26,851 nucleotides of DNA. Origin: a virus. The stretch is taken from positions 1 through 26,851 of the IMG/VR virus record IMGVR_UViG_3300013372_005923; one strand, written 5' to 3'. Both the position numbers and the translations under genes were made by a program. Each line of letters begins with the position of its first letter. The stretch's first letter is position 1. Shown piece by piece: positions 570-22,788 of the stretch. The notes under the pieces were generated by a model. That model did no database searches, had not been told where the DNA came from, and saw only the letters and a list, made by a program, of their open reading frames with translations.

Positions 570-3500
570 TGTTCCGCGCCAATCATTGTTTTTCTAAATT
601 GCCTAATGTCTTCAAGGCTTGCAACATTCCTACCTAGTCTCTGCAGGATGTCTCTAACGTCTTGGGCAAGTCTTTCGTCTAATAATTGGTCAACAGTCAT
701 ACCTTCTTGATAGTTCTTGTATGTTTTAGGGTTGTCATAATCCAGACCGTCAGAATTTGCAAAAATAATTCGTGGACTTTCCCCTGTTTTAATTTTTGAA
801 TTTACACGAGTTCTGTAGGCTTCGCGTAATTTTCTGGTTTCTCTGAGGCCCTGAACAAACAAAATTCTTTCAATCATTTCTTTTGATGCTTCTTTTTCTC
901 TTAAGTTTTTTGGATTAATTGCAATGCTTAAAACATTTTTTAAATCATCGTTAATTGACAAACGTTGCAAAATTTCCCCAGCTTTATCATAATCGGGCGT
1001 TTTGGGTTTGAAATTTTTATAGATGTTTGTTTCAACATAGTTTTTATCAAGTCTAATTTCTTCTACGTCGTCAAGAGTAAAACCCCCAGCAACAATAGCT
1101 TCTGCATATTGTCTTTTGCCATCTTCACCAATCCCAATATTGTTAAAATTTTTGTTACCAAGAAATGAATTTAATAAATTGGAAATTCTTTTTTCAGTAG
1201 TTAAAGATGTTGCGTTTTCTGGGCCTAATTCACCAGCATCTATGTATCTATTGCGCAACATGGCGACAAGAAGCGTTTCATCGTCGCTTTCGCCATCAAG
1301 GTCTACTGCGCTGCGCGCACCTTTCATTGAGTCACCCAAGGTCGTCAAAGTCCTATGAGCCGACGTGTCTTTTAGGACGACTTCCGAATTGCCATCCAAA
1401 TATTTTGGCGTCTTTGATGAAATGTTTTGTTCTTTGGGGTCAAATGTCAAAAAATCAGGCAAAAATTCTGGGTTTATTTTTGCTGTATTAATTCCACGTC
1501 TTTCAAAATTGTCTTTGTTTTTTTCAATTGTTAATTGTGCTTTATTTAACCGAGCATTGATTTCGTCAGAATGCAGCAGATAGCCCCTGACTGGGCGTAT
1601 TGAATCTGAAGCATCCTGAGAAATACCGAATCTTAAATGTTGTTTTACATTTTCTAATTTATCGGTGTCAGGGTTTTTGAATATCCCAGTTTCTAAAAAT
1701 TTATCTAAATCCGAAGAATTATCGTAATCAATACTGTTTGTATTGAACCTAAAACGAGGACGCTTATCTAGGCCATCAATATACTTTTTAGCACTTTTTA
1801 TTAGATTCTGTTTTATTTCATTGTCGTCCATTTTTTCAATTTGCTTTTTTACTTCTGGGAGCAAATCAAATTTTTTGTCTTTTTTAAGAATAGATTTTTT
1901 TAAATTAGAAATTGTTTCATCGATTTGCTGTATTGATTGTTCGCTTGATTCGAATCTTGAGCTTTTTGAATCAGACAAGTTGGTCATTTTTTCGATTTGA
2001 TAAGAAATTGGGTTGCCCCAAGTTTGTCTTTCATTTTTTAATTTTTCTAAAATTCTTAAAGAATTAACATCAATCATCTCTGGCAATTTACTTACTACGA
2101 GATTGCTGTTTAGTTTGGTGGATAATTCGTTATTTAATGTTTCGATATTTCTTCTTGCTTTAATAACAGACAATGCCCGACGAGCTTCAATTTTATGAGA
2201 ACCCTTACTATTAGGACTTGCAATAATTTCTTTTAATGAATTTTCTAGCTTAGACAAAGTTTCGATTGGGCGTTTTTGTTCTTCCAGCTCAGCAACAATA
2301 GTCCCATCGTCTCGTTGTCCAGTAATTTTTAATCTTCCAGGACCAAGAAGTATTGAACCTATTTCACCACGGAGATTTTGAGAATCTTGCGCCGAAGCTG
2401 AACTGGAACGTAATCCTTGACTTGGAGCTGAAGAATTTTGTTTTTTAGATTGCAACTTTTCGAGTTCGGCATTAATCATTGCAGATAAATTTTTTTGATT
2501 TTTTTCATTGTTTTCATTTTCGTTATCGGGATGGTCAAAAATCACCATAGTGCCATCAAGTTTGACCCCCTCACCATATTTAGCATTAACAGCTCGCAAA
2601 TATGCTTCATAGGGAGTTGTTTCGTCATCCACAATCAATTGCTCGGCCGTTAGGCCGTGCCAAATACTATTTGGGTCGTTCTTTTTAATTTTTTCGTTAA
2701 CCCAAAATTTTGTCATGCCTGCGTTAAAGGGCTCAACTTCATCTAATGGGAATATTTTAGAATCAACAACAAGGTCTATGCCTTTGTCCAAAAAACTTTC
2801 TCGCAATTCGGCCGCGGCAATCAGTGAAGTAATATTTTGGTCTGCTTTTTTATTGTAACCCCTAAATGAAAGTTCGCCAAATGATTCGCGTGCTTCCTGT
2901 GGACTAATAACTATTGCCGCCACATCTGGCGCATCAAAAGAACCCAAAATCATTGCCTCTTGATAACGATTTTTACCCGCACCATCTTTGGGTAAATTTT
3001 CTGCAGGGGATGCAATTGAATCCATATCCCCAGTCCTATCTGCATACAAGATAGACATTGGGTCAAAATACATTTGCCGATAATCGCTATCATCAATTGT
3101 TGAAAGTTTTAACGCTGGAGAATAATCCCCAGTATTTGCAATACTGTCACCCGTAAATACCAGAGTTCGCTCAGAAACTTCTGGACGCAAAATCAATCTA
3201 GCATCTCCATATCGGCCCATGTCTTGGCTGGACCCTTGTGCTAATTCTCCAATCGCGTAAGGATGTTGTATTTCGATATCTTCGCCGTATGTCTCCCTTA
3301 AAAGCGAGACACGTTTTTTTACGGCAGTTTGTGTTGAAACGTACCCAGATGCTGGCCTTAATTCTGTCGTTTCAGGAGACGTATCTGATGGGCTAATCCC
3401 GAGAAATCGTTGCTCTATATTGGACCTTGCTCTAAGAATTGTTTCAATATCAAATCTGTCTCGTTCGCTTAGCCCTCTTGCGCCAGCAAGGTTCATTCTT

Positions 3501-6500
3501 TCTCTGTCATGGACCGTAAGATATTTCCCACTTTGAATTATTTTTACTGGGTCGTCAACTTGAACAGAAATCATTTGACTAAATTGTGGGCTTAAACGCG
3601 AAGACGCTTCTTTGACGGCAATATTGAATTCTTCTGCAGACATTTTTTTTACATCAGCAATTAGTTTGTCAATTTGCTCCACTTTTTTGGAATCGCCTTT
3701 TGCTATAGCGATTTGTTTTACAATGTGTAATCTGACACCAAAACCCTTTTTTTCATCGCCGTAAAACCAATTGTCTAAAATAAACTTATCATCGGCTTTT
3801 ACAAATTTTGTTCTGTCATAACTTGGCCTAAATCCACCAGCAAGAATAGTTTCCTGTATGTCCTTTGAGCGTTTTGCATCTTCCTCTTCTGATACCAAAA
3901 ATTTAAATTCCCCAAGATTGAATTCCCCGTCTTGCATGTTGGTACTAAATTCATCCACCCGAGGCATGCGGTCACGCTCATATGCATCGATATCAATGTT
4001 GTTGTTTTGAGCGCGCTCAATGATTTCTCGTGAACGAGCGGCTGCCGCAGTACTAGACGACCGAAGACCTTTAGAAATAGATGCCGTGCCAAGAGTTCTT
4101 TTGCGCTCTACTTCTTCCATTATTTTATCGGGTGTTCCTTTCCCACCTCTGGGCTTACGTGATGGTGTGAAATCAAAATCTGGAACCCCACGAGAACCTT
4201 TAGGTACTTTTATAATTATTTTTTGAGTTTCTGGCCCAAATGGATTAATGTCTAATTCATATTTTTGTTTATTTGTCAAAATTGCTGCTCGCATAAAATT
4301 AGTAAAATCCATAAAGCTCATTCGGTTTATCTTTTTTGAATTTTTAATATTTCCAACATCTACAGCCACTGCTAAATCTTGTTCTGTTTGATTATTTTCC
4401 ATCAAATCTAATATTGGCAAAATGTCGTCTTCAAGTTTTTTGTCAAATGTTTTGCCTTCGGAAATACCGTTTCTGATATTACTGCTTGCATCTAATTCGG
4501 CATTAATTAAACCTATATCGTTTAAAATTCTTCCGTTATTTTGTTCTGGCAACTCTTGTTCAATTGCTCTTTTTTGTTTAGGTGTGGCGCGAGACAAAAT
4601 TTTGTCTTTTATTTTAGAAAACCTTGAAACAACGGAATTTTTTGTTTCAAAAGATTCCGTTGAATCAAGCGTCGATATTGGGTCATTGTCGCCTACTAAT
4701 CGTTTTTGTCTTTCTGTATAACTTTCACCAGTAATGTCCTGGCCTCGTACGCGCTTTTTGCGTTTTCTATCAAAGCTAAGTTTACTTGCGCGAGGAGTCC
4801 CATCTGCGTTGTACCCGTATGCGCTGATTTTGAATTTGCCGTACTCTTCTTGGGTGTTTTTGAATTTATGCATCAAATCCATTGGTCCGTTTAGATGCTC
4901 AAGAACTTGCTTGATTTCGTCGGTGGGTTCAACTAAGCCAAATTTTACAGCGGCATTTAATTCAACAATTCCTTCAGCAAACATGAGTGCTCTTTGCCGT
5001 TGAATCGCCTGTAGAAAATTTTGATTACCAGATTGAATTTCTTCAATAGAATTCATGGCTGTGAATAACGCCCATTGTCTATTTTTTTCTGCAGCAGTTT
5101 TTTGGCTATCGGGTTTTTCAATTAGTTTATTAAGTTCGTCACCAAGGCGATTGATTAACTTTATTTTTTCTTTTTCTGATGGGATTTCTGCAATTTCAAT
5201 CAAAATATTTAATGCATTTAAGTGCGACAAAGGATAAGGGCCAGCAACACCATCTTTGACCAACTGTTCAACCATTGGTCCCATTTGGGCAAATGCTGAA
5301 TCAATAACTTTTGGATTGCTAAGTATTGATTCCATTGACATCAGGGAGTTGCCGCCAGTAATCAATTCGTCTGCCAAAGACATTATTTCTGCGTTGGTCA
5401 TACCTTTAAGTCTTTTACCATCAGGGTCATGAGATATGAGGTATGCAATCAACGCATACTGTTTGGCATGTGCTAGTTCGTGTTGAAAAATCCAAACTGC
5501 TCGTCCGATTGAGCCAGCTTGTTCCGAAAACAATATTGCTAAATGTTGGCTTCTATCGCGAGATTCTGACGAATCGCCAATTTGAACTTGTCGTAAAAAT
5601 GCATCTAATGCCTGCTTTCGCTGACCCGCATCTACAATTTTAGAAATTGCTTCTATTTGTTCAATTTCTAAACCCTTACCATCGCTTCTATATAAGCGCC
5701 ATTTGTCCGCACTTTGTGGCTGTGGCGGGCTTTCCAATATCATCCCAATTGGGTTTAAGTGCATTATTAGTTTGCCATCTTCGTCAGGCAGCATCATGGC
5801 TTCAGTACCCCTGTCTCTTTCTGACATTGGGTCCATAATTCTAAAACCGTCTATAAGTTCTACATCCATTGGATTTTCTTTATGCTCAGCAATTATTGAA
5901 AGCAAAAATCCATGTTCAAAAGCTAAAAATTCATCAAATTTATACGAGACCCTTTCGGCCACAAGTTTTTCAGTCGGCGACAATGAATCATAATTTTGAT
6001 TAAGAATTGCACGCAAAACTCGTTCTCTCAATCGTGGTAAATTTTCTGGAGAAAGTTCTGGGTTTTTTTCAAAAGTATCTAATTCTTCTAAAGAAAAATA
6101 TTTTTCTAAATTTTTTTCATCTCTCATCATTTCAAAAATTTGAGAAAGCACGTTTTTGTGATGTAGTGCGGTCATTTCTTCAACGGTCAAAGAGTCATTG
6201 GCACCATCCATTTGAGAACCCCATAAAAGGTTTTCGAATTCAACATCCCAGCCTCGAGCTTTAAGTATTTGCAAAGCTTTCATTACGCCAGCGGTGATAC
6301 TTGTTGGGTCATTCTCGTCAACATCAATGCCTAATTCACGCATGTAATCAATAGCGGTTTTTATTTTATTATTGATGGTTTGCACCGAGCGCGCACGTTG
6401 CTCAGCTAGGGCCACAATCCTTTCTCGTTCCTCAACGTCGATTTGTGGATAATCTCTTGCAAGCTGACCCCTAATGGTGTCTGCAAAAACAATTGGTTCA

Positions 6501-7336
6501 ATGGTTTGTAGTTTTTCAACAATTTTACCGTCGGGCCCAAGTAGTGATGGAATAATTAATTCTTTTTGTGGAACTATTAAACCACTAGGGACAATTAACC
6601 CACTTTCTCTTCTTTGTACGTTTTCAATTCCAGCAATTTTATTAATATCGGACATCACTAGTTGTCCTTTATTAATTGTTGCGTTAAGCAATCGTTTTGC
6701 AACGTCTGGCATAAAGTCAAAACAGTTAGAACCAACAGAGTCTGTGAATTGGTTTGCTGCTGGCACTCCAGGGGGGCAGCGTAATTTGCCCAAGGCGTCA
6801 GCGACTAAACCTATCTTTGCTGCTGCCCTTGTCCCAATATCTCCGCCTGGGACAATTCTGCCGATTGATGCACCTAATGCTTTTTTCTCAAAACCCCCAG
6901 TTCTTGGATTTGGTTTTGAATCAGAAAAATTAAAAGATGGTTTATTTTCTTTTTGATTGTTGTAATTTCTAAAAACTTTTTTTACATCTTTTATGTCAAT
7001 TGTTTTAACCGCATCAACCCAACCAACATTTGGAATTGTGTCGTTATTTTTTCTGTTGTGCTTCATAATCCATGGGACATAAACTTTCCCAGGAGCCCAA
7101 GTTGCATTTGGGTCATAGACCGCCATACCAAATCTTTTGATTGAGCTTTTCCCCCTTTTTCTTTTAGGTGCATTTTTAGCAACTGGATTTTTGCTAATTG
7201 TTGCAGCTTTAAAAGACATACCTACATTCGGCAACTCTTTGTTTAAGAAAGCGTCTATGCGTTCATTTAAGGTTGGTGGGGCAACGAATCTAGCGCTTGT
7301 GTGTAGGCGTGAAATTTTAAATTGTTTACCCGTCAT
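566..7336 (-). CDS. Giant multidomain head-operon protein (about 2256 aa) with HExxH zinc-peptidase motif and duplicated domain
   Basis: The start at 7336 has GGAG six bases upstream; an in-frame ATG at 7348 (4 residues longer) has a poorer site. Numbering is from 7336. Near 182-206 is LRCPPGVPAANQFTD..GSNCF, a motif I associate from memory with actinophage head proteins. HELAH at 619-623 (codons 5468-5482) is a zincin HExxH; FAE near 786-788 or VE near 791-792 could give the third ligand. GLRS occurs at 1090-1093 and 1641-1644 in Ser/Ala-rich linkers. Two related domains lie at about 1261-1481 and 1876-2098, each with RPxxGY, a strand ending RTL..x.GDS, and YxEA followed by G.F..DV. Their pattern recalls DUF3626 or ADP-ribosyltransferase-like domains, unproven. 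There is no signal peptide or membrane segment. The gene sits in the portal-protease operon, so it is probably packaged in or attached to the head. Such length suggests an injected effector or internal virion protein. The metalloprotease motif is clear; activity is inferred. Confidence 0.85.
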   Translation of the reverse strand: MTGKQFKISRLHTSARFVAPPTLNERIDAFLNKELPNVGMSFKAATISKNPVAKNAPKRKRGKSSIKRFGMAVYDPNATWAPGKVYVPWIMKHNRKNNDTIPNVGWVDAVKTIDIKDVKKVFRNYNNQKENKPSFNFSDSKPNPRTGGFEKKALGASIGRIVPGGDIGTRAAAKIGLVADALGKLRCPPGVPAANQFTDSVGSNCFDFMPDVAKRLLNATINKGQLVMSDINKIAGIENVQRRESGLIVPSGLIVPQKELIIPSLLGPDGKIVEKLQTIEPIVFADTIRGQLARDYPQIDVEERERIVALAEQRARSVQTINNKIKTAIDYMRELGIDVDENDPTSITAGVMKALQILKARGWDVEFENLLWGSQMDGANDSLTVEEMTALHHKNVLSQIFEMMRDEKNLEKYFSLEELDTFEKNPELSPENLPRLRERVLRAILNQNYDSLSPTEKLVAERVSYKFDEFLAFEHGFLLSIIAEHKENPMDVELIDGFRIMDPMSERDRGTEAMMLPDEDGKLIMHLNPIGMILESPPQPQSADKWRLYRSDGKGLEIEQIEAISKIVDAGQRKQALDAFLRQVQIGDSSESRDRSQHLAILFSEQAGSIGRAVWIFQHELAHAKQYALIAYLISHDPDGKRLKGMTNAEIMSLADELITGGNSLMSMESILSNPKVIDSAFAQMGPMVEQLVKDGVAGPYPLSHLNALNILIEIAEIPSEKEKIKLINRLGDELNKLIEKPDSQKTAAEKNRQWALFTAMNSIEEIQSGNQNFLQAIQRQRALMFAEGIVELNAAVKFGLVEPTDEIKQVLEHLNGPMDLMHKFKNTQEEYGKFKISAYGYNADGTPRASKLSFDRKRKKRVRGQDITGESYTERQKRLVGDNDPISTLDSTESFETKNSVVSRFSKIKDKILSRATPKQKRAIEQELPEQNNGRILNDIGLINAELDASSNIRNGISEGKTFDKKLEDDILPILDLMENNQTEQDLAVAVDVGNIKNSKKINRMSFMDFTNFMRAAILTNKQKYELDINPFGPETQKIIIKVPKGSRGVPDFDFTPSRKPRGGKGTPDKIMEEVERKRTLGTASISKGLRSSSTAAAARSREIIERAQNNNIDIDAYERDRMPRVDEFSTNMQDGEFNLGEFKFLVSEEEDAKRSKDIQETILAGGFRPSYDRTKFVKADDKFILDNWFYGDEKKGFGVRLHIVKQIAIAKGDSKKVEQIDKLIADVKKMSAEEFNIAVKEASSRLSPQFSQMISVQVDDPVKIIQSGKYLTVHDRERMNLAGARGLSERDRFDIETILRARSNIEQRFLGISPSDTSPETTELRPASGYVSTQTAVKKRVSLLRETYGEDIEIQHPYAIGELAQGSSQDMGRYGDARLILRPEVSERTLVFTGDSIANTGDYSPALKLSTIDDSDYRQMYFDPMSILYADRTGDMDSIASPAENLPKDGAGKNRYQEAMILGSFDAPDVAAIVISPQEARESFGELSFRGYNKKADQNITSLIAAAELRESFLDKGIDLVVDSKIFPLDEVEPFNAGMTKFWVNEKIKKNDPNSIWHGLTAEQLIVDDETTPYEAYLRAVNAKYGEGVKLDGTMVIFDHPDNENENNEKNQKNLSAMINAELEKLQSKKQNSSAPSQGLRSSSASAQDSQNLRGEIGSILLGPGRLKITGQRDDGTIVAELEEQKRPIETLSKLENSLKEIIASPNSKGSHKIEARRALSVIKARRNIETLNNELSTKLNSNLVVSKLPEMIDVNSLRILEKLKNERQTWGNPISYQIEKMTNLSDSKSSRFESSEQSIQQIDETISNLKKSILKKDKKFDLLPEVKKQIEKMDDNEIKQNLIKSAKKYIDGLDKRPRFRFNTNSIDYDNSSDLDKFLETGIFKNPDTDKLENVKQHLRFGISQDASDSIRPVRGYLLHSDEINARLNKAQLTIEKNKDNFERRGINTAKINPEFLPDFLTFDPKEQNISSKTPKYLDGNSEVVLKDTSAHRTLTTLGDSMKGARSAVDLDGESDDETLLVAMLRNRYIDAGELGPENATSLTTEKRISNLLNSFLGNKNFNNIGIGEDGKRQYAEAIVAGGFTLDDVEEIRLDKNYVETNIYKNFKPKTPDYDKAGEILQRLSINDDLKNVLSIAINPKNLREKEASKEMIERILFVQGLRETRKLREAYRTRVNSKIKTGESPRIIFANSDGLDYDNPKTYKNYQEGMTVDQLLDERLAQDVRDILQRLGRNVASLEDIRQFRKTMIGAEQ
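1043..1711 (-). repeat. Duplicated domain within the giant protein, copy B
   Basis: This stretch encodes residues about 1876-2098 of the giant protein: an FGIS segment, RPVRGY, a strand ending in HRTLTTLGDS, then QYAEAIVAGGFTLDDVEEI. It matches copy A (2894-3556) in the order and wording of all four landmarks, with larger insertions between them. Copy B is nearer the C-terminus. Confidence 0.65.
2894..3556 (-). repeat. Duplicated domain within the giant protein, copy A
   Basis: This stretch encodes residues about 1261-1481 of the giant protein: an LGIS segment, RPASGY, a strand ending in ERTLVFTGDS, then RYQEAMILGSFDAPDVAAI. Spacing from RP to GDS is 69 residues here and 87 in copy B; from GDS to EA it is 64 and 78. 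The Arg...Ser...Glu order recalls ADP-ribosyltransferases and DUF3626, but no catalytic assignment can be made from one sequence. Confidence 0.65.
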
Positions 7337-7371
7337 AACGGGCTCCATTTTCTTGAAGTTGTCAAATTCTT

Positions 7372-8739
7372 TTAGGAATTTTTTTCGTCAACTTCCAAAT
7401 TTAGGAGTTCAAATTCAAGGAGCGACGCTAAAAATTCATTATCAGCTACGGTTGTATCCGATTTTACATCATCAGCAACTTCGGATTTTTCTCCTTGAGC
7501 CAACCAATTTGAAGGAATTGCTGATTCAGCGCCTAATGCCTTAGCTCTCTTCATGATGTGCTGTTTAGCAGTTGCCTTATTTTTTGCGCGACCATAAGCC
7601 TTGACAGCATTTTCTAAATCATCGCGATTAGCAATAGGGAAAGAACCATCAGCAAGTGCTGTACCTTCCTTAGACATCTTCTCTCGTTCTTCATCAGAGA
7701 AAGCGCGCTTAAGTGCAATTTCTGCAGCTTCTGCTTCAATTTCTTCTGATTCTTCTGGCTCATACTTGTCGTAGCCAAGAACTTCTCCATCAAGGGCTAC
7801 GAAAACATCATAAGACTTACCGTCAAGACCATCAATTTCTACAGCATAAGTGTCATAGCCCTCAAACACATCTGGTTCTACTGCTACAACTTGTCCTTCG
7901 ATTGACTTAACCGCAATTTCTGCGGCTTGATTAAAGTCAATAAGCGACATTTGGTCCACTAAAGACTTTTGCTCAAAAGCATCAGAATCTAATTTGTGCC
8001 AACCAAGAACTTCCGCATTCGTGCCATCCATGAAAACTTCTACGGTGCGACCATCTTTTGTTTCTACATCGACAACAAACATGTCGGCTTCCGACGAGTA
8101 TCCAGAGTCGATAACTTTGCCCTCAAACATGTCTTGAGCAAGACCTTCAACATGGAGAAGGCCAGGCATACCCTTTTCGGACATGCAGCCACCTGGGCAA
8201 TCTTCGCATACGTTTGTGCCGCCTGGGTAAACCTTGCGGTCAACTGCACACATGTAACCATTGCGACCTACATCTAAAGACTTGTAACCAAGGGACTCAA
8301 GTCGAAGTTCCTTCATAGCATTTAAAGAAGCCATTGGTGAATCTTCGTCTTCCTCTTCTTCCTCGTCCTCTTCGTCTTCTTCTACTGCCATTTCTTGTTC
8401 GTCGTCTTCTGGCGTTTCTACGTCTTCAACAGGAAGCTCTTCTTCTTCTTCTTCCTCCTCTTCCATTTCATCTTCCGCTTTCATTTTTAGCGGTTTTCTT
8501 TTTGGATTCATTCCGTACATTTTTTTTGGCACCACTTCTTCTTCCATCATTTCTTCTTCTTCAACCATGTCTTCGTCCATTGCCATGGCAGCCTTCATCT
8601 GAAGAGGCATAGCTCCGCATTTCCCGCAAACCTTCGCACCAGGGACGTAGCCGCAAACAGAACCTAAATCTTTTGCGCATTTGAGCACAGTTCCATCACC
8701 GTCAACCTTGACTACTGATTTACCGTCTTGCTGACCCAT
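7372..8739 (-). CDS. Cys-rich, acidic head-associated protein with PepSY-like repeats and DUF6582-like C-terminus
   Basis: The start is the ATG at 8739, eight bases after a near-perfect AAGGAG (8748-8753); an upstream GTG at 8772 is unlikely. The 455-residue protein has a four-Cys cluster near 21-41 ending in CGKCG, probably zinc-binding. A run of Glu/Asp with Met follows (about 55-134), then a second Cys cluster (163-185, ending CEDCPGGC). Two PepSY-like alpha/beta units lie at about 194-251 and 269-327, the second ending DGEVLGYDKY. The C-terminus at 347-413 (DGSFPIANRDDLENAV, then GRAKNKATAKQHIMKRAKALG) resembles DUF6582, found in actinophage head proteins. The ribosome site and the better codon choice than in flanking genes suggest high expression, as for a capsid-associated, scaffold-like or decoration protein. 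Its exact role is not known, and it does not look like an HK97-fold major capsid protein. Confidence 0.85.
   Translation of the reverse strand: MGQQDGKSVVKVDGDGTVLKCAKDLGSVCGYVPGAKVCGKCGAMPLQMKAAMAMDEDMVEEEEMMEEEVVPKKMYGMNPKRKPLKMKAEDEMEEEEEEEEELPVEDVETPEDDEQEMAVEEDEEDEEEEEDEDSPMASLNAMKELRLESLGYKSLDVGRNGYMCAVDRKVYPGGTNVCEDCPGGCMSEKGMPGLLHVEGLAQDMFEGKVIDSGYSSEADMFVVDVETKDGRTVEVFMDGTNAEVLGWHKLDSDAFEQKSLVDQMSLIDFNQAAEIAVKSIEGQVVAVEPDVFEGYDTYAVEIDGLDGKSYDVFVALDGEVLGYDKYEPEESEEIEAEAAEIALKRAFSDEEREKMSKEGTALADGSFPIANRDDLENAVKAYGRAKNKATAKQHIMKRAKALGAESAIPSNWLAQGEKSEVADDVKSDTTVADNEFLASLLEFELLNLEVDEKNS
8338..8577 (-). repeat. Low-complexity GAA/GAG tract coding for poly-acidic region
   Basis: On the minus strand this is a purine-rich run of GAA, GAG, GAT and ATG codons coding for most of the acidic residues 55-134 of the protein above. 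On the plus strand it reads as cttcttctt-type sequence. Such tracts tend to vary in length by slippage. Confidence 0.7.
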
Positions 8740-8747
8740 AATGCTGA

Positions 8748-8753
8748 CTCCTT
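8748..8753 (-). promoter_or_regulatory. Strong ribosome binding site AAGGAG that fixes the start at 8739
   Basis: AAGGAG lies eight bases before the ATG at 8739. It is one of the three strongest sites in the window, with those of the sheath and the tube, and it excludes the upstream GTG at 8772. Confidence 0.8.
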
Positions 8754-8780
8754 GATAGTTTTGAATAGACACGAAATTGT

Positions 8781-8796
8781 CCGTTTTTTCAAACGG
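8781..8796 (-). promoter_or_regulatory. 5' leader hairpin with GNRA-type loop
   Basis: The minus-strand RNA would read CCGTTT-GAAA-AAACGG, a perfect 6-bp stem closed by a GAAA tetraloop. It lies between the candidate -10 box and the AAGGAG of the 455-residue protein. There is no U-tract, so it is not a typical terminator. A role in stabilising the leader of a highly expressed mRNA is inferred. Confidence 0.5.
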
Positions 8797-8835
8797 TTCG
8801 AATCTACGCTGTTATATGAAATTCCTAATTTACAA

Positions 8836-8841
8836 ATTATA
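8836..8841 (-). promoter_or_regulatory. Candidate -10 box TATAAT for the 455-aa head protein
   Basis: A perfect TATAAT on the minus strand lies about 100 bases upstream of the ATG at 8739, in the 152-base gap after the protease gene. No good -35 stands 16-18 bases upstream, so an activator or a weak -35 would be needed. The remaining gap to 8891 is AT-rich and shows no gene. Confidence 0.4.
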
Positions 8842-8891
8842 CTTCACAAGGCGTTTTGTGGCGGAACTATTCGTGTTTTAGTGTTTATTAA

Positions 8892-11800
8892 TTAATTTTT
8901 GATTGTGACTGATTGGCCTCGTGAATTCTCTACAGTTCTTTTTGTGGCGCCGATGGGTGGAGTTGTTTTTTCAATAAAGGTAGACATTGCCGCACCAGCA
9001 ACCTTCTCTAATAGCTCGGCAAATATTTTGCCCCTAGAACCGCTTGAGCCGACTTGTCTGTCAACAACAGCCATTACGGCATCAAGAATTTGGTCTGCTT
9101 CATCTGCCGTAATTGTCAAAGACCCAGCATTTGTTCTTGTTGAGCCAAGTTTCCCAGATTCTTGACGTTTTAAAATAGACTGCAATAGCTGCAAGCCATT
9201 TCTTGTTTTATCATCGGTTGCTTTCGATATTTCTTTTGGTAATGAAGTTTCTATTTCATTCCACCATGTTGCTTCGGCATTAATTTGAGTTCTTGGCGCC
9301 TTTTCTTTGTTGGTTGACGTCCTGGACCTCAGGCCCACCACTCCTGAGCTCCCCTGTTTTCTTCTAGACCTAGCCGTTAAGTAATTCGTGGCACTATTTA
9401 TGCTATTAAACACAACATCAGAAATATCGTCGTCGCCACCAGCAGCACCGATTAGGTCATCTAGAGGGTTTAGTTCTCGGGTGATTTCTGTTGGTTTTTC
9501 AATTTCTTCCAATTCAGCTCGGCGGGCAGCCATTGACGATGCAATAATTTCTAAATATTCCTTAAGTTTTCCTTCTTTCACTGTGCTGGCTTCTGTAAGG
9601 TCTAATTGCATTTCGGAAAGAAGGTTGGAAATTAAGTTTTCAGCGTTTTTAAGAGATTCAGCTGTTTCTCCATCACCAAGTTCTGAGTCAACAGCAGCAA
9701 GAGTCTCTCTGGTTTGTTTGTCAAGCAATTTTCTTACGTTGCCACGTCCTGACTCATTGGCATCCAAAAATTGACGTAATCTTTCCGTGGCTTTCAAAAA
9801 CTTTGAAATTTCTTCCGACTCATCAGAAGATTCTGGTTTTTCAGGGTTAGGTTTTTCTTTTTTAGGTTTTGTTTGAGCCCTAGATTCGCCTTCTCTTTTT
9901 TCTTTTTCTAATCTTTCAGCCTTTAGTTTTTCAAGTCTTTTGGCTCTTGCGGCTTTTGCTATTGTTGCTTCTTCATCAGCCAACATTTGCGTGTTTATCA
10001 TGTCAAGCTGACGTGACCGAACCTCTTCACTCAAACCAAGCGTTGGCGCTTCGTTGAGTAGCCAATTTTCTTTTTCAGGGAGGGACATTAGGCGCCAATT
10101 ATTTGGTTGTACGTCAGCCATTCTTTTAGCTATTTCAACACGTCTAGGAGAAGTTTCTGCGCTACTTGTTGCGGGAGGCTTGACCAGTCTTGTTTGGGTT
10201 TTTGAACCCATTCTTCGACCGCCGCCACCTTTCCTTGCCCTTAATTCGCCGCCTTTATTTTCAATAATTTTATTTAAAGAATCTTTCAAATATTTAATAT
10301 CAGCATTGTTTGCGTCTTGACTCTCTATTTCTGATAGTGCTGCAGAAATGTCTTGTGGGTCGAAATCAATTTGAATTGAGCCCTTATATCTGTTTGCAAC
10401 AAGGCTTTGTTTTATTCTGCCCAAAACAGAGTCTGGATTAATTTCTGACCCTGGTGCGGCGGTTGTATCAATTGCTTTAATCAATTTTTCAGCAATTGGT
10501 CTTGTCATTGAAGTTGTAAATTTTGATGGGTTGCTGTTGCTTCTTAAGCCAGAACTGCGGGCTACTGGACTTCTGGTTGGCATTTTTGTTGGGGCGGGCA
10601 TTTCGCGCCAGGTTCCATCGAAAATCAAGCCGTCATTGTCAATGTCTCGTCGTTTTTTGGGGTCAAGTTCCCCAGTAATTTTAGAAAGCGCGCCTCTAGC
10701 GCGCCTTGCTTTTCCCTTACCACCGCCACCAAGTGACCGACCAATAATTTTACCAATGCCTTTTGTCGCGGTTTCAATGGCTTGATATGCATCGTTGTCG
10801 ATTTCTGAAGTAATTAAAATTCCATTTTCTGTCACAAGCGTCTCTACGCGGTGATAATCAAATACTGGGTCTAGTAGTTGTTTTGTTTTAAATGCAAACC
10901 TGGGCTCACATTCAACAATAAAATCTGACTTTGTCTCAACTTCAGAGCCAACAATTTCTTGCAATGTTTCAATTACATTTTTTAATTTATTAACCGTACG
11001 GCTATTAATTGCACGACCAACTTTTGTTTCTTGGTTAATTTCGTCAAGAATGAAATCAAGTTCATCCATCGCTGTTTTTTCGTCGTTTTTAGGCATTACT
11101 GTTCCAAAAACAACACTTGGATTCTCTGGACTTCTTGGGGTCGAATAAGCAAGAGCAGGAATTGAAGGGGTCGGTACTGGTCTTGGCGCCAAGTTCATCA
11201 TTGATGGACCAAGCTGTTCAGGTTTGCCAAACATCCATTGTTCCCCATCAAAGTAATATCCGAGCCTAAACATTCCTTTGCCTGGCTTCATGAACATGAC
11301 GGAACTTTCAGTCGCTTTCATCACCTTGATTGGGCCGCCAGTGCGTGAAGTTAATTCTCTTTCTAATGCCGCAACACGGTCGCTATCTGCTGGTTGAGCC
11401 ACCCCTTGTGCAAATGGGTCAACTGGACCTTTGGGTTTTTCAACAATCGGCATTGGTGAACCGCTGGTTGCATACATGTGCATTTTTTCTTCTTCGCTTT
11501 TTACCGAGATGGTCCCAGTTAATTGGTTGGCCCCATGTAAAACTGGACTAACTTCATAAAGTTCAACTTCTCTTAGAACATTTGCTTGTCGAGTATTGTC
11601 GTAGATGGCATCTAAGGTTTTATAGCCAATTGACCATTCTTGTTCTTCGCCAAAGAATGCAATATTGGCAAAAGCTTCTTTGCCTTTTTCGGAATTCAAA
11701 TTAAATTGGACTTTTGCAAACAAGCCACCAATCCCAGCGGCTTTCATTTTTGAAGGCAATCTGGGGTCATTGGATGGGACTTCGTAAATTTCTAAAACTT

Positions 11801-14092: not shown

Positions 14093-14272
14093 TTAATCAG
14101 CGCCCAAAATAAAACCGAATATGCCACACGATATGCCTGCCACCAGGAAGCCAATTGGGGGTGCTATAAGGAATCCTCCAACTGCACTAAACAGTATAAA
14201 TGAAAGCATTAGCAAATTCGCGGAGGTAGTGCGGTTCAATTTTGATTTTAGAAAAACCAGTGTTTTCTTCAT
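14093..14272 (-). CDS. Small two-helix membrane protein
   Basis: From the ATG at 14272 (GGTGGG just upstream) the product is 59 residues; a longer frame from 14317 has no ribosome site and would run through the palindrome at 14293-14305. The start MKKTLVFLKSKLNR is positively charged. It is followed by two hydrophobic helices (about 19-38 and 40-57) separated by APP, so it probably sits in the inner membrane with a short hairpin. It is the first gene of the head operon, abutting the portal. Its function is unknown; a holin-like or assembly-site role is possible but unsupported. Confidence 0.6.
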   Translation of the reverse strand: MKKTLVFLKSKLNRTTSANLLMLSFILFSAVGGFLIAPPIGFLVAGISCGIFGFILGAD

Positions 14273-14292
14273 TCCCACCAACCTAGCGCATA

Positions 14293-14305
14293 AGTATGAC
14301 ATACT
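14293..14305. promoter_or_regulatory. Palindrome AGTATG-A-CATACT in the divergent promoter region
   Basis: This is a perfect 6-bp inverted repeat with a one-base centre, placed in the only region between the two divergent operons. It lies 25 bases upstream of the terminase GTG and 21 bases upstream of the preferred start of the membrane protein gene. Its size and place suit a dimeric repressor or activator operator; no regulator gene is present in the window. Confidence 0.4.
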
Positions 14306-14329
14306 AATAGAACTCATTGGAGATAAATC

Positions 14330-15634
14330 GTGAATGATTGGAATAAAGTTTTAGAATATCTGGAGCCCAAAAAGCCATTATTTTGTCCAGAAACCCCATC
14401 CGTAAACCAAAAAGTTTTTTTGAGAACTTATTCAATTGAAGCATTATTTGGTGGTGCTGCTGGTGGGGGTAAGTCATCTGCATTATTAATGGCCGCCCTA
14501 CAGTATGTTGATGTGCCTGGTTATTCAGCGCTTCTTTTGCGTCGCACTTTTGCTGACCTTTCCTTGCCTGGAGCCTTAATGGACAGATTTAGGACATGGA
14601 TGTCTGGATATGAAGAAGTCCATTGGAATGCCAACAGTTTTATAGCGACTTTCCCATCTGGCGCCAGAGTTTCTTTTGGCTACCTAAACAATGCTGGTGA
14701 CTATCTTCGATATAAAGGTTCCGAGTTTCAATTTATAGGCATGGACGAAGTAACCGAGATAAGAGAAGGAGACTATAGATACCTGTTCTCTCGTCTTCGT
14801 CGCCCAGCATCAGGCCCATTAGCAGAAGTGCCATTAAGAATGAGATGCGCATCCAACCCAGCCCCCAATTGGGTTAGGCAAAGATTCATCGTTGAGGGCA
14901 AAGAGAAGCAAAGGGTATTTGTTCCCTCAAAACTTACAGACAACCCTGGAATTGATGCAATTTCTTATAGGCAATCTCTTTCTGCGCTTGACCCAGTTGA
15001 GAGACGAAGGCTTGAAGAGGGCGACTGGTGGTCAACAACTTTAGGGACAATGTTTGAAAGAACATCTGTTGTCATTATTGATAATAACGAATTACCACCA
15101 ATCACCTCTTCGGCAAAAGTTGTTAGGTTTTGGGACCTTGCAGCGACCGAACCTTCAGACAAGACACCCAATCCAGACTGGACAGTAGGGACATTGATGC
15201 TATTTGACCAAGGTGTTGCCTATATTTTGGATGTTAAACGAGCAAGATTAAAACATGAAAAAGTCGAACAATTCATAGCACAAACAGCTTACGAAGATGG
15301 TCTTAACGTACCAATCCGTATGGAGCAAGAACCAGGCTCTTCGGGTAAAGCATTAGTGGACCAATTTGCACGATACGTATTGCCTGGTTCTGATTTCTCC
15401 GCAATACGTTCAACTGGAGATAAAATTACTAGAGCAAGACCATTTGCTGCCGCGGTAGCCAATGGCAACGTAAGAGTAGTTAGAGGCTCTTGGTTGTCTG
15501 AATGGATGGATGAATTAGCATCTTTCCCTGAAGCATGTGACCACGATGACCAAGTCGACTCTGCTTCGGGTGCGTTTTTATATTTAACTGGCTTAGGGTT
15601 GCCACAAAGAAAAAAAGTCAGTATTGTAGTTTAG
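14330..15634 (+). CDS. terL: Terminase large subunit
   Basis: This is the ATPase and nuclease that pumps DNA through the portal and cuts the concatemer. The 434 residues show a Walker A (GGAAGGGKSS, 41-50), a Walker B (FIGMDE, 135-140), a coupling SNP (175-177), and a C-terminal RNase H-like nuclease with FWDLAATE (Asp269), MEQEPGSSGK (331-340) and DHDDQVD (404-410). The length is normal. The start is a GTG at 14330 with GGAG seven bases upstream. It is the first gene of the rightward operon and faces away from the portal. No small terminase subunit is recognisable in the window. Confidence 0.95.
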   Translation: MNDWNKVLEYLEPKKPLFCPETPSVNQKVFLRTYSIEALFGGAAGGGKSSALLMAALQYVDVPGYSALLLRRTFADLSLPGALMDRFRTWMSGYEEVHWNANSFIATFPSGARVSFGYLNNAGDYLRYKGSEFQFIGMDEVTEIREGDYRYLFSRLRRPASGPLAEVPLRMRCASNPAPNWVRQRFIVEGKEKQRVFVPSKLTDNPGIDAISYRQSLSALDPVERRRLEEGDWWSTTLGTMFERTSVVIIDNNELPPITSSAKVVRFWDLAATEPSDKTPNPDWTVGTLMLFDQGVAYILDVKRARLKHEKVEQFIAQTAYEDGLNVPIRMEQEPGSSGKALVDQFARYVLPGSDFSAIRSTGDKITRARPFAAAVANGNVRVVRGSWLSEWMDELASFPEACDHDDQVDSASGAFLYLTGLGLPQRKKVSIVV

Positions 15635-18463: not shown

Positions 18464-19015
18464 GTGCTTGAAATAAAGATTATGGGCCTTGATTTGTCGC
18501 TTACGTCTACTGGTGTCTGTATTTCTGGCACGTCATTTTCAATCAATAGTAAACACAAAGGTACTAAACGCCTTATTGAGATTTCTGAACGGTTGCTCAA
18601 TATAATTAATTTAGAAAATCCACAAGCAATAATGCTTGAAGGTTATTCTTTTGGTTCAAAATTTAGCCGCGCGCATTCGATAGGAGAGCTCGGTGGTGTC
18701 ATCAAAACCCTTCTTTATCAAAACGGAATTCCCGTCATAGACGTGCCGCCTGCGTGTCGAGCAAAATTTGCTACAGGTAAAGGAAATGCTTCAAAAGTTG
18801 ATGTTCTTTTATCTATTTCCAACATGACTGGTTTGGAATTTTCTGGGGCCCACAAAGATGACCTTTGCGATGCTTGGGTATTAGAGCAAATGGGTCTGGC
18901 TAAATTTGGTTTGTCTAAGTTTCGTTGGTCGAAAGAGCAATTGTCTTCTTTGGACAGGATAGATTGGAGTCCATTATCTCAATTACTAAATAAGGCGGTT
19001 ACTAATGAGTCGTAG
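18464..19015 (+). CDS. RuvC-like Holliday junction resolvase
   Basis: RNase H-fold resolvases of this type cut branched DNA left by recombination or replication before packaging. The motifs are present: IMGLDLSLTSTG with Asp10, IMLEGYSFG with Glu59, and AHKDDLCDAW with Asp132/Asp133/Asp136, a complete acidic set. The length of 183 is normal. The GTG at 18464 gives a proper first strand; an ATG at 18482 would start at Met7 and cut it. No clear ribosome site precedes either. The gene overlaps the next one by 11 bases. Confidence 0.85.
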   Translation: MLEIKIMGLDLSLTSTGVCISGTSFSINSKHKGTKRLIEISERLLNIINLENPQAIMLEGYSFGSKFSRAHSIGELGGVIKTLLYQNGIPVIDVPPACRAKFATGKGNASKVDVLLSISNMTGLEFSGAHKDDLCDAWVLEQMGLAKFGLSKFRWSKEQLSSLDRIDWSPLSQLLNKAVTNES

Positions 19016-19343
19016 TTTTCCGATTAGTCAAGTTGATATCGAAGAAGAGTTGTTGCGCTTAATTGATTTACTTGAAAGTGAAACAGAAATTTTTGAAGAA
19101 TTGGCTTTGGATGCAGCTAAAAAAGAAGCATTATATAAATCAAACTGGGCAAAAGAATATCTTGCGGCTAAGGGTTCTATCAAAGAACGTGAAGCTTGGG
19201 CGGATTATAAAATGGACCAACAAAATTTTGATTTTAAGTGTGCTGAAGCTTTAGTTAAATCAAAACGAGAAAAACTTCTTTCCCTTCGTACGTCAATGGA
19301 TTCAATGCGTACACTAAATGCCAACGTTAGAGCACAGGTTTGA
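19005..19343 (+). CDS. Small coiled-coil protein of recombination cassette (112 aa)
   Basis: This is an almost fully helical, charged protein with no cysteine pair or membrane segment. AKKEALYKSNWAKEYLAA and a second Lys-rich helix near the end (VKSKREKLLSLRTSM) give a two-helix coiled-coil look that I associate, from memory, with small phage proteins near annealases. AAGGCGG lies six bases before the ATG, within the end of the RuvC-like gene. Its role is unknown; a DNA-bound accessory or structural partner of the recombination proteins is plausible. Confidence 0.75.
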   Translation: MSRSFPISQVDIEEELLRLIDLLESETEIFEELALDAAKKEALYKSNWAKEYLAAKGSIKEREAWADYKMDQQNFDFKCAEALVKSKREKLLSLRTSMDSMRTLNANVRAQV

Positions 19344-19345
19344 AC

Positions 19346-20143
19346 ATGGTAGAAAATATTCACAATTCACTTAAGTCTTTGGTGGTATCAATTGACTCAT
19401 TAACCAATCTGGATAAAAATCCTCGAAAAGGCAATATTGATGCTATTGCGGCTTCATACCAAGAATTCGGACAAATAAAACCAATCGTTGCAAAGAAAAA
19501 CGACGATGGTACAGCCACAGTTATCGCAGGAAACCACCAATTAATGGCTGCAAAAAAACTTGGTTGGGAAAAAATTGCTTGTGTATTTTTGGAAGGGAAT
19601 GACGAAAGAGCAATTGCTTTTGCCCTTGCCGACAACCGCACCATGGAGCTTGGATATACCGACGACGATTTGCTCCATAAAATGCTTGTTGATATATCTG
19701 CTGATTATGGTTCCCTTTGGGACAGTCTTGGCTGGGACGAATTTGAGATGGCGGTAATTGACGACAGAGCAACACGCAAACAAGCTGCGGAAACGATTGA
19801 TAGTCAGTATTTTACGCCAGTCATTGTTCTTTCAAATGAAGAAAAATCTATTGAGGAAAATAATCAAAAAATAAAAGAAATGGTACAAACCGACGAAGAC
19901 GATGGCAAGTCAAAAATTATGGTTGATAAAAATCTTGACCAAAATTCAATCGCGACAAAAGGTTCGACTTCAGTTTCGTCCGCCCCACAAGCGGTAGTTC
20001 AATACACTATTGTTTTTGACAACCCACAACAGCAATCTCGATGGTATGACTTTGTTAGATGGCTTAGGGCAAATCCAAGCATTGATGGCAATACGACTGC
20101 CGAACGTCTCATGAATTTCATAGACGAACATTGTGAAATTTAA
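19346..20143 (+). CDS. ParB-like (IbrB-type) protein, first of the ParB-PAPS trio
   Basis: The N-terminal ParB/Srx-fold domain is visible: NPRKGNIDAIAASYQEFGQIKPI (25-47), TVIAGNHQLMAAKKLGW (58-74), and FALADNRTMELG. The usual ParB GERR box reads GNHQ. A low-complexity acidic linker (about 150-215) leads to a C-terminal domain with YTIVFDNPQQQSRWYDFVRWLRA, as in other phage ParB-like proteins. The ATG at 19346 is chosen over a TTG at 19340. It shares a base with the next gene (TAATG). In the E. coli IbrB-IbrA pair a ParB-like protein works with a PAPS-reductase-like one, and the same neighbourhood is seen here. There is no parA, so plasmid-style partition is unlikely. Confidence 0.85.
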   Translation: MVENIHNSLKSLVVSIDSLTNLDKNPRKGNIDAIAASYQEFGQIKPIVAKKNDDGTATVIAGNHQLMAAKKLGWEKIACVFLEGNDERAIAFALADNRTMELGYTDDDLLHKMLVDISADYGSLWDSLGWDEFEMAVIDDRATRKQAAETIDSQYFTPVIVLSNEEKSIEENNQKIKEMVQTDEDDGKSKIMVDKNLDQNSIATKGSTSVSSAPQAVVQYTIVFDNPQQQSRWYDFVRWLRANPSIDGNTTAERLMNFIDEHCEI

Positions 20144-21282
20144 TGACCAGACAAAGAATGTTTTTAGACATAAATTGTCTTGAGGCAGCACGTGCTCGCA
20201 TTAGGCATGTTTATGACACTTTTGACACTGTGTGTGTACAGTTTTCTGGAGGTAAAGATTCAACAGCAATTCTCTATTTAGCAAAAGAGGTCCACGAAGA
20301 ACGTGGACTAGGTCCAGTCAGGGTGATTTTTAGAGATGAAGAAATGGTCAGCCCTCGCACTATTGAATATGTTGAGCGGGTTCGCAACTATCCGTGGGTG
20401 AACATGGAATGGTATTGTTTGCCATCTAGTTCAGAAATTTGGGTGCTCGGCCGTAGGCAGTCGGTTCTTTTTTGGAGTGAAAAACGTAAGAACGAAGGAC
20501 GATTAGTTCGTGATGTCCCACCATTCGCAATTACTGGAAAACACTTTGGCTTATCACACGCCGAACCATTGCCTCAATCAATTGACTATTACACAATGCA
20601 GGGGAAAACTGGAAGTGTTGCTTTCCTTACTGGAGTTAGAGCAAATGAATCAATGATTCGCTATCGCTCACTTGTGCAAAAGCTACATGAAAATTATATT
20701 GTTACCCCTTATAAAATGAAAAAAAATATTCCTTTAAAGTTTGCAAAAGTTATTTACGATTGGCAAATTGATGACGTTTTTAAATTTTTAAGCGAAGAAC
20801 ATAATGCGGAATACTGTTCTTATTATGACGTAGCGGCAATGACTGGTAGCAATACTAGGGTGGGTATTCCATTGCACGCGATTGCAATTAGACGAATAGG
20901 TGACGTGATAGTAACAGAGCCAGAATTCTATGACCGACTTGTAACGGCTTTCCCATATATTGATGCTCAACGTCTTTATTGGCCATCTCTTGATGTTGAT
21001 TACATAATTAATAAATATGCATCACTTGGTTTTGATGGAGCATCTATGTTTATCGAAGACTACGTAATTGGTCCAGCAAAAATTAAAAAAGCTCGTGTAT
21101 TTGTTGCAGAATTTAGGAGAAAGCATTTAAGTGACCCCAGGTCTTACACTATTTATCAACTTATCCGCACATTGTTTTTGAATCAAATTGCTTCTGTGGT
21201 TTCGGCCAGCCCCATTGGCCCAAAAACAAAAGTTCACTCGGTCAGGGAAGTTTCAGAAATCGAAAATCAGTACATTGATTAA
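20143..21282 (+). CDS. PAPS reductase-like ATP pyrophosphatase (IbrA-type)
   Basis: This 379-residue protein of the adenine nucleotide alpha-hydrolase fold has the PP-loop SGGKDST at 35-41, RDEEM near 65, and LTGVRANESMIRYRSL near 162-177, typical of PAPS reductases and IbrA-like proteins. The C-terminal half (about 185-379) includes VIYDWQIDDVFKFL and is specific to this group. It lies between two ParB-like genes, with a one-base overlap to the first. Sulphate assimilation is unlikely without partner genes. Nucleotide or DNA modification, regulation with the ParB-like partner, or hijacking of adenylylated substrates are alternatives. DndC of phosphorothioation shares the fold, but no other dnd gene is present. 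Confidence 0.88.
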   Translation: MTRQRMFLDINCLEAARARIRHVYDTFDTVCVQFSGGKDSTAILYLAKEVHEERGLGPVRVIFRDEEMVSPRTIEYVERVRNYPWVNMEWYCLPSSSEIWVLGRRQSVLFWSEKRKNEGRLVRDVPPFAITGKHFGLSHAEPLPQSIDYYTMQGKTGSVAFLTGVRANESMIRYRSLVQKLHENYIVTPYKMKKNIPLKFAKVIYDWQIDDVFKFLSEEHNAEYCSYYDVAAMTGSNTRVGIPLHAIAIRRIGDVIVTEPEFYDRLVTAFPYIDAQRLYWPSLDVDYIINKYASLGFDGASMFIEDYVIGPAKIKKARVFVAEFRRKHLSDPRSYTIYQLIRTLFLNQIASVVSASPIGPKTKVHSVREVSEIENQYID

Positions 21283-21300
21283 AAACTTAAAGGTGATTAC

Positions 21301-21849
21301 ATGAAAATAGAAATGATTAAGGTTGAACAATTACAGAAACCAGAATGGCACTCGACACATATTCTTCGTCCTGATTTGCTTGTTTTGTCATCGTCCTTAA
21401 TGTGTAATGGTTTTATTTCCCCAATTGTGGCACAAAAAGAAACAAACATAATTATTGATGGTTATCAGCGTTGGATGCTTGCAAAAGATTTATTGGAGTT
21501 AAATAAAAAAATTAATGGTTTAATTCCTGTTTTTTTTGTTGATTGCAATTCTCTGGAAGCAATGCTCATGCATTTACAAATAAATAGGGGTAGAGGTATT
21601 TTGTTGGCTCATAAAGTGTCGTCAATAATTAGGGATTTATTTAATAGCGGCAAATATGACGAAAAAGATTTTGACAGGCTATTGACTATGAAGTATGATG
21701 AATTAGAAGTTCTCTTTAATCCAACAATTTTAAAACAACGAAAAATTTCAGAACACAAGTACTCACGAGCCTGGGTTCCAGTTGAAGCGCCAGCTGGCAC
21801 AGTAGATAATGGTCCAACGACTGAACGACCGCCCAATGCCGATAGGTAA
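21301..21849 (+). CDS. Second, shorter ParB-like protein
   Basis: This is a ParB/Srx-like domain of 182 residues: LVLSSSLMCNGFISPIV (27-43), IIIDGYQRWMLAKDL (50-64) with GYQRW in place of GERR, and MLMHLQINRGRG. The tail beyond 150 is Pro-rich and probably disordered. A good site, AAAGGTG, stands five bases before the ATG, and a 19-base gap separates it from the PAPS-like gene. Its sequence is clearly different from that of the first ParB-like protein, so the two are not a recent duplication; one may read a target or modification and the other regulate the enzyme (inference). Confidence 0.82.
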   Translation: MKIEMIKVEQLQKPEWHSTHILRPDLLVLSSSLMCNGFISPIVAQKETNIIIDGYQRWMLAKDLLELNKKINGLIPVFFVDCNSLEAMLMHLQINRGRGILLAHKVSSIIRDLFNSGKYDEKDFDRLLTMKYDELEVLFNPTILKQRKISEHKYSRAWVPVEAPAGTVDNGPTTERPPNADR

Positions 21850-22155: not shown

Positions 22156-22788
22156 ATGCTTGTAACATCCGCTGATTTAAGAACATACATGGATATTACT
22201 TTGTCTAATCGGCAATTAGATGCGGCAGACATTGTGTTGGCTGGCCTACAAAGCGAATTAGAGTCTTATCTAAATAGGCCAATTGAGGTTGGTACATTTA
22301 CAAACGAAAAACACGTTCTTCCAGCTACGCATGTTGGAATACCAATGACTTCATTTTTTTATAATCAAAGCCTGGACAGCACTTCAGCCCAGGGCACGGT
22401 CACCTATAGTGAGCCACCAACGACTATCTATTTAAGAAATAGCCCAGTGGTGACAGTTACTAATGTTACTTTAACTCCAACTCAATCTCCATTACAGGTC
22501 CTGGTTGTGGACCAAGACTATACGGTTCGTAGATATGGCATAGATGTTTATCGTGGATTTGCTAACGATGTTTTAAGAGTTACGTACACCGCTGGCCTTG
22601 CAGGTGCAAACATTGCCATGTTCAAACTCATGATTCTTCGCGCCGCAACAAGAGAAATGCAAAATATGCATGACGACGTTGTGGGTGTGAAGGATTTAAA
22701 TCCACGAGGTGTCGCGATAGCAGAAACTGGATTTACCGACAAGGAATTAGCAATGTTAAAAAGATACAGAAGACATCGGATTGCTTAG
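22156..22788 (+). CDS. Head-tail connector (adaptor) protein, HK97 gp6-like
   Basis: This 210-residue protein begins LVTSADLRTYMDITLSNRQLDAADIVLAGLQSELESYLNRPIE, the helical start typical of gp6/gp15-type adaptors that bind under the portal. A beta-rich middle follows (TIYLRNSPVVTVTNVTL, YTVRRYGIDVYRG), then a helical C-terminus. This part, RVTYTAGLAG followed by KLMILRAATREMQNM, is also usual in the family. GGGG precedes the ATG. It comes just before the gpG/gp10-like completion protein, the normal order for neck genes. Confidence 0.8.
   Translation: MLVTSADLRTYMDITLSNRQLDAADIVLAGLQSELESYLNRPIEVGTFTNEKHVLPATHVGIPMTSFFYNQSLDSTSAQGTVTYSEPPTTIYLRNSPVVTVTNVTLTPTQSPLQVLVVDQDYTVRRYGIDVYRGFANDVLRVTYTAGLAGANIAMFKLMILRAATREMQNMHDDVVGVKDLNPRGVAIAETGFTDKELAMLKRYRRHRIA

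Follow-up and report, generated by a model that had tools for sequence, protein, structure and literature searches.

What function could bring together, between the recombination and tail genes of a phage, an enzyme resembling 3′-phosphoadenylyl sulphate (PAPS) reductases and two ParB-like proteins? The question is raised by the IMG/VR viral record IMGVR_UViG_3300013372_005923, a stretch of 26,851 bases that is possibly a fragment and is called the window here. Its source phage is contractile-tailed, with tail sheath and tube genes. The three neighbouring genes are named P1, P2 and P3 in their 5′ to 3′ order, and all three were found where an initial annotation of the window had placed them:

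19346..20143, + strand: P1, ParB/Srx-type protein of 265 aa (Pfam ParB_N, phrog_723; GNHQ box and DNR box)
20143..21282, + strand: P2, PP-loop N-type ATP pyrophosphatase (PAPS-reductase-like) of 379 aa (Pfam PAPS_reduct, phrog_2302)
21301..21849, + strand: P3, IbrB-counterpart ParB/Srx-fold protein of 182 aa (phrog_2159 and fold; DGxxR at 53-57, N95-R96)

P1 starts at the ATG at 19346, its stop and the P2 start share one base (TAATG), and a GGTG-type ribosome site precedes the P3 ATG at 21301. The 575 relatives of P2 in IMG/VR and the conserved gene order confirmed that the trio is real, far above chance. We propose that it is probably a phage DNA hypermodification cassette with the PP-loop enzyme P2 as its engine. 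The proposal is based on the exchange of the trio with modification cassettes in one genomic slot, the partners of the P1 family, two contigs of the window's own lineage (G025 and G038), retention of the trio in 24 long contigs, the intact ATP site of P2, and the acetyltransferase, methyltransferase and oxygenase genes inserted beside P2 and P3.

A genomic slot and a ParB family shared with DNA-modification cassettes

Relatives were drawn from IMG/VR, from phage isolates and from a collection with a single genome for each bacterial species. Bclasvirinae and a Gordonia relative have exchangeable cassettes in the region ahead of the homologous TerL, and most of these open with a P1-family ParB. 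The Rosebush-type, Cooper-type and Pegunavirus genomes compared were Coffee (species Rosebushvirus rosebush), Hydro and Kailash, respectively. At the left genome end of Coffee the order is ParB-DpdA-QueC-QueD-QueE-FolE-TerL, and its DpdA was confirmed as a member of the queuine transferase family. The same slot holds P1-two small genes-P2-P3-TerL in Gadjet (Pipefishvirus), ParB-TET/JBP-like in Hydro (Coopervirus) and Serendipitous, and ParB-ParB/methyltransferase-...-methyltransferase in the Gordonia phage Evaa. Kailash has no such cassette; its TerL is preceded just by an adenylate-kinase-like gene. Over 139 residues, gp1 of Gadjet shares 48% identity with gp1 of Coffee, and the TerLs are about 60% identical. 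In Rosebush DNA about 28% of G is present as dPreQ0, as determined by liquid chromatography-mass spectrometry (PMC6884629), and gene 1 of CRB2 was proposed as DpdB by its authors (PMC6392294). Hydro gp2 (785-1759 of locus L246) is labelled 'oxidoreductase'; its TET/JBP match falls below the cut-off, it also matches a PHROG with the label queuine transferase, and it is probably a TET/JBP-type DNA oxygenase.

The P1 family also adjoins modification enzymes elsewhere. These loci, outside the Bclasvirinae group, were hand-picked for taxonomic spread out of 260 records and are not a full count. A P1-family ParB adjoins DpdA in Bipper and lies beside TET/JBP and ADDT in Tonitrus (Rhodococcus) and beside Mom in Antuna and Zartrosa (PF25680, 1e-46 and 4e-61); in Stormageddon it forms a fusion with an N6/N4 methylase. 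The Tonitrus ParB is already listed among the components of a thymidine hypermodification system (PMC11955845). The Mom genes of Antuna and Zartrosa (L402 4488-5114 and L403 4761-5381) are labelled 'acetyltransferase', yet match Pfam Mom. A profile built from the P1s of the window's lineage alone finds the ParBs that accompany DpdA, TET/ADDT, Mom and methyltransferases at 1e-13 to 1e-25, and no P3 or IbrB. Published reports agree with the P1 family being a partner of DNA-modification enzymes: ParB domains occur alongside the genes for phage cytosine carboxymethylation (CmoX), where their role was noted as unknown (PMC12783734), and are fused to methyltransferases (PMC12704722).

Two contigs of the window's own lineage show the same association. 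On G025 (156 kb) a second P1-like gene overlaps a TET/JBP oxygenase gene (L405 1855-3464 = G025:C1:37354-38963), and this pair is likely a further base-modification cassette. On G038 the displaced P1 (10291-11052) is located 40 kb from P2-P3, beside N6/N4 methylase matches (7957-9796). By slot and by shared accessory genes, the trio groups with the phage DNA-modification cassettes, and the idea of phage DNA modification, which the initial annotation had called conceivable, gained support from both the slot of a proven cassette and the partner enzymes of the P1 family.

Additional enzymes were found next to P2 and P3. A GNAT gene is present in Kovu, L095, L096, L101 and L103, a class I S-adenosylmethionine (SAM) methyltransferase in Bacillus phage 022DV001, L098 and L099, a 2-oxoglutarate (2OG) oxygenase in L143, a gene annotated as methyltransferase (phrog_11826) in Laroye, and HNH-like proteins in some phages. 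The weaker methyltransferase calls were made from a visible SAM motif and the annotation, with no Pfam match. That a GNAT and a methyltransferase alternate in this position suggests that they tailor one common product.

The three proteins and their pairing

P2 matched Pfam PAPS_reduct with 40.4 bits (cut-off 22.5) and phrog_2302 at 1.6e-75, and carries SGGKDS at 35-40, GxRxxESxxR at 164-173 and C225. Dereplication at 90% identity of P2 left 75 loci of the P2 subfamily and 77 loci of IbrA proper. The ATP-pyrophosphatase site, consisting of the first two motifs, is intact in all 75 P2 loci. A PDB sequence search gave weak matches only (best E 0.56). In an AlphaFold2 (AF2) model with a mean confidence (pLDDT) of 74.5, the best match was the PAPS domain of FAD synthase (8rom, Z 11.1), followed by adenylyl sulphate and PAPS reductases at Z 9-10; the alignment spans about residues 3-254 and barely covers the C-terminal third. 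P2 is a member of the N-type ATP pyrophosphatase (PP-loop) superfamily.

P2 is not IbrA proper. No Pfam match to DUF3440 was obtained with P2 at E≤1, whereas the IbrA of an E. coli phage matches at 4.7e-33, and in the tree, which is rooted at the midpoint only and contains long branches, a branch supported at 100/100 separates the trio P2s from IbrA. C225 is found in 72/75 P2s, and IbrA has Asn there in 75/76. The only other broadly conserved cysteine of P2 is C92 (65/75); the C-terminal part has none, the last recurrent one (column 303) occurring in 24/75. From the genome collection, the best 80 of 178 relatives were retained. Because a Kribbella contig carries the sole P2-subfamily locus among these 80, the subfamily looks largely phage-restricted.

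Some loci depart from the usual arrangement. P2 is displaced from P3 in L126, L150 and L163 (P2 at 6001), and in L126 and L150 a conserved gene of 140 aa (MQTFVPY...DYRRLGKQRVE...) precedes the displaced P2. In L127 (5523-6023) and L130 (3798-4298) a gene of 167 aa lies between P2 and P3; it looks by eye like a PD-(D/E)XK nuclease and has no Pfam match.

P3 gave no match in a Pfam search and matched phrog_2159 at 3e-27. Its AF2 model (pLDDT 86) has the ParB/Srx fold, with VIA-align Z scores of 13.8 to CTP-bound ParB 7bnr (root-mean-square deviation 2.1 over 93 residues), 9.8 to sulfiredoxin and 7.7 to free serine kinase. The fold and the PHROG match bear out the description of P3 as a second, divergent ParB-like protein. 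P2 has a P3-like gene downstream of it in 69/72 dereplicated loci, and so has IbrA in 70/72. At 7e-12 to 1e-15 the P3 profile picks up IbrB from phages of E. coli, Streptococcus and Flavobacterium, which the P1 profiles miss. DGxxR is present in 72/72 P3s and corresponds to DGFHR in 74/74 IbrBs. With its ParB fold, its position next to an IbrA-like gene and its DGFHR-type box, P3 qualifies as an IbrB. In the isolate collection, searches with P2 and P3 gave 214 and 207 records with nearly identical taxa.

P1 shows a different distribution. A P1-like gene is found upstream in 47 of 54 P2 loci, as against 1 of 64 IbrA loci, and this single case is a truncated P2 of the trio subfamily from Kribbella. 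Based on the gene positions, the profile scores and the near-identical taxa of P2 and P3, we regard P2-P3 as the IbrA-IbrB-like pair and P1 as the extra member. The initial annotation had assigned the pair to P1-P2, an assignment that profile scores and gene position rule out. In the L103 record the P3 match (G012:C1:133-618) contains one in-frame TAG, and the P2 of this contig is the most divergent of the set.

P1 matched Pfam ParB_N with 34.6 bits (cut-off 26.3) and phrog_723 at 7e-39, and a PDB sequence search with P1 matched Noc/ParB. P1 and P3 are thus both of the ParB/Srx nucleoside triphosphatase (NTPase) fold, P1 by Pfam and P3 by structure. The P1 box consists of GNH and Q, T or R, followed by a DN[RKQ] box, and a GNHT/DN pair also characterises the actinophage ParBs that accompany DpdA, TET/JBP and Mom. 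The GNHQ and GYQRW sequences noted before are indeed present. They had been taken as lost GERR boxes, which is not simply the case: given the family-wide GNH[Q/T/R] of P1 and the invariant DGxxR of P3, they are conserved variants of the ParB NTP-binding boxes, clade signatures rather than decay. The product of L085 5245-5940 (Rhizobium phage L338C gp88), labelled 'DNA methyltransferase', matches ParB_N only and is the P1 of a trio.

Retention and genomic surroundings

Among 95 loci of the window's lineage in which the slot is bounded by both flanks, P1, P2 and P3 are present in 86 and P3 alone in 9, and none holds another modification cassette in this slot. For a sampling independent of the trio, records were chosen via the neighbouring RuvC or head-tail adaptor, which gave 24 long contigs of 64-160 kb. 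P2 was found in 24/24, P3 in 24/24 and P1 in 23/24; in the 24th contig (G024) the P1-type match sits inside P3 and was left uncounted. On G002, whose slot holds P3 only, P1 is located at 72.6 kb and P2 at 92.0 kb, and P1 is also far from P2 on G021 and G038. The three genes are core genes of the lineage and are retained even when scattered. This retention shows strong selection; it does not by itself show joint function, since the contigs share ancestry.

The surrounding genes place the trio between recombination and tail genes, as had been described:

16202, upstream: Erf-like annealing protein
16761, upstream: exonuclease
18133, upstream: HNH
18464..19015, + strand: RuvC-like resolvase, lineage marker for the trio-independent sampling
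19005..19343, + strand: phrog_1389-like small gene directly before P1 (PHROG match)
22156..22788, + strand: head-tail adaptor, lineage marker for the trio-independent sampling
22789, downstream: neck
24309, downstream: sheath
25803, downstream: tube

The phrog_1389-like gene is a conserved neighbour within the lineage (45 loci) and outside it is no member of the trio. Elsewhere in the window, an open reading frame of 2260 aa (566-7348, - strand) has no PHROG match, and near it lies one of 1036 aa with a head maturation protease at its N-terminus. At 14093-14330 the portal and protease genes (- strand) and the terminase (+ strand) diverge inside the packaging module.

Proposed function and comparison with known systems

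In the proposed mechanism, P2 would adenylate a substrate group with ATP, with AMP transfer and release of pyrophosphate, and would transfer the activated group to, or transform it on, the bases of phage DNA or a DNA precursor as the presumed substrate. P3 would be the dedicated, near-obligate ParB/Srx-fold subunit of P2. P1 may be a general-purpose NTPase, which probably loads the enzyme on DNA or links access to the target with NTP hydrolysis; such a role has been suggested for DpdB with DpdA. A GNAT, SAM methyltransferase or 2OG oxygenase next to P2 and P3 may tailor the product. Sulphur chemistry is possible in that C225 or C92 could carry a persulphide, though the cysteines and score expected of DndC and the C-terminal cysteine of CysH are missing.

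Several points weigh against DNA modification. The association is one of family and position, not biochemistry, and a literature search found no nucleoside analysis of any trio phage and no paper treating the trio as one unit. ParB-like genes are common in phages. The P1-family loci of GMA6 and UBSmoodge, next to RuvC, have no recognised modification enzyme (that of UBSmoodge is a ParB-DUF4417 fusion), and the P1s of Bacillus and Rhizobium phages give low scores against the P1 profile (47 and 35 bits) and are without the GNH box. Co-retention within the lineage is partly inheritance. Furthermore, what has been reported for IbrAB, the nearest characterised pair, is activation of prophage genes and not DNA modification.

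The last point leads to a different explanation, in which the trio co-activates transcription of phage late genes like IbrAB, without DNA modification. The relation of P2-P3 to IbrA-IbrB by sequence and order, the ability of ParB folds to bind DNA, and the activation of prophage eib genes by IbrAB (Sandt et al. 2002, as cited in PMC10434257) are consistent with such a switch. It leaves the ATP-pyrophosphatase site, the other partners of the P1 family and the swap with the dpd cassette unexplained, however, and the action of IbrAB could itself be DNA modification; we consider the switch unlikely.

An anti-defence or nucleotide-signal role, with a host signal or the NTP pool being degraded or modified by P2 and the ParB NTPases, is quite unlikely. 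ParB/Srx proteins bind ATP, CTP or GTP (PMC12704722), a function as NTP-depleting effectors has been put forward for them (PMC10853773), and the almost exclusively phage-borne P2 subfamily would fit such a role. The partners of P1, in contrast, modify DNA and do not hydrolyse nucleotides, P2 is a core gene in its lineage, and the set does not vary among phages of Actinomycetota, Bacillus and Rhizobium, which is unusual for an anti-defence gene.

Backbone phosphorothioation, which the initial annotation had brought in through the fold shared with DndC, fared worse than DNA modification in general. P2 would act like DndC or SspD, host IscS would donate sulphur, and the ParBs would replace DndB- or SspE-like regulators. 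P2 does match the padloc BrxP and DndC models weakly (6e-8 and 2.5e-7), DndB belongs to the ParB superfamily, and IscS can take the place of DndA (PMC12839542, PMC10853773). On the other hand, P2 lacks the 4Fe-4S and dyad cysteines and scored 22.4 bits with NCBIfam TIGR03183, far below the cut-off of 290.4, and no DndD-, DndE-, SspB- or SspC-like gene, nor any other Dnd or Ssp partner, was recognised among the neighbours looked at. No aminotransferase-V (cysteine desulfurase) was found in the 24 long contigs, a function that host enzymes could serve. P2 was rejected as a DndC, and this explanation is very unlikely. Finally, a PAPS reductase for host sulphate assimilation accompanied by partition proteins, as implied by the automatic annotation of several records and by the Pfam PAPS_reduct and ParB_N matches, is hardly credible: P2 has no conserved cysteine in its C-terminal fifth, where the catalytic cysteine motif of CysH lies, and is tied to ParB genes, while no ParA (PF13614) occurs in the 24 long contigs and P1 scored 36.8 bits with TIGR00180 ParB, below the cut-off of 58.45.

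To return to DNA modification, a broader version is tentative and rather doubtful: the trio would make a new DNA-base modification through an ATP-adenylating PP-loop enzyme, outside the known phage base chemistries, and bacterial IbrAB would work likewise, altering prophage expression by modifying DNA. If the DNA-modification reading is right, hundreds of environmental phages and some 50 isolated mycobacteriophages would carry a new enzyme class for DNA hypermodification. The P1-type ParBs, whose role was noted above as unknown, would share one function as accessory subunits that serve DNA-modifying enzymes of unrelated chemistry, and the old IbrAB puzzle would gain a testable mechanism. Trio phages already exist as isolates, among them the Pipefishvirus phages Gadjet and Phlyer and the Arthrobacter phages Kovu and Laroye.

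Among known systems, the IbrA-IbrB pair of E. coli ECOR-9 and its phage homologues resembles P2-P3 in gene order, PP-loop site, and DGxxR and N-R boxes; P2 differs in its missing DUF3440 match, C225 for Asn, separate side of the tree and attached P1. DndC, SspD and BrxP are, like P2, PP-loop PAPS-reductase-like proteins, and DndB is their ParB-superfamily partner, but their cysteine set and partner genes are missing from the trio. Mom of Antuna and Zartrosa adjoins a P1-family ParB, as P2 does, and is a single GNAT-fold enzyme with no PP-loop protein. The Tonitrus thymidine cassette (TET/JBP, ADDT, kinase) likewise begins with a P1-family ParB, 61.6% identical to Gadjet gp1 over 112 aa, whereas its modification enzymes differ from those of the trio. 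The dpd/preQ0 cassette of Rosebush-type phages and Bipper has the same layout, with the P1-family ParB first, the enzymes next and the terminase last. DpdA and the Que enzymes stand there in place of P2-P3, no TGT was found in the 24 long contigs of the window's lineage, and in Bclasvirinae the trio fills the same genomic slot as the Rosebush-type cassette.

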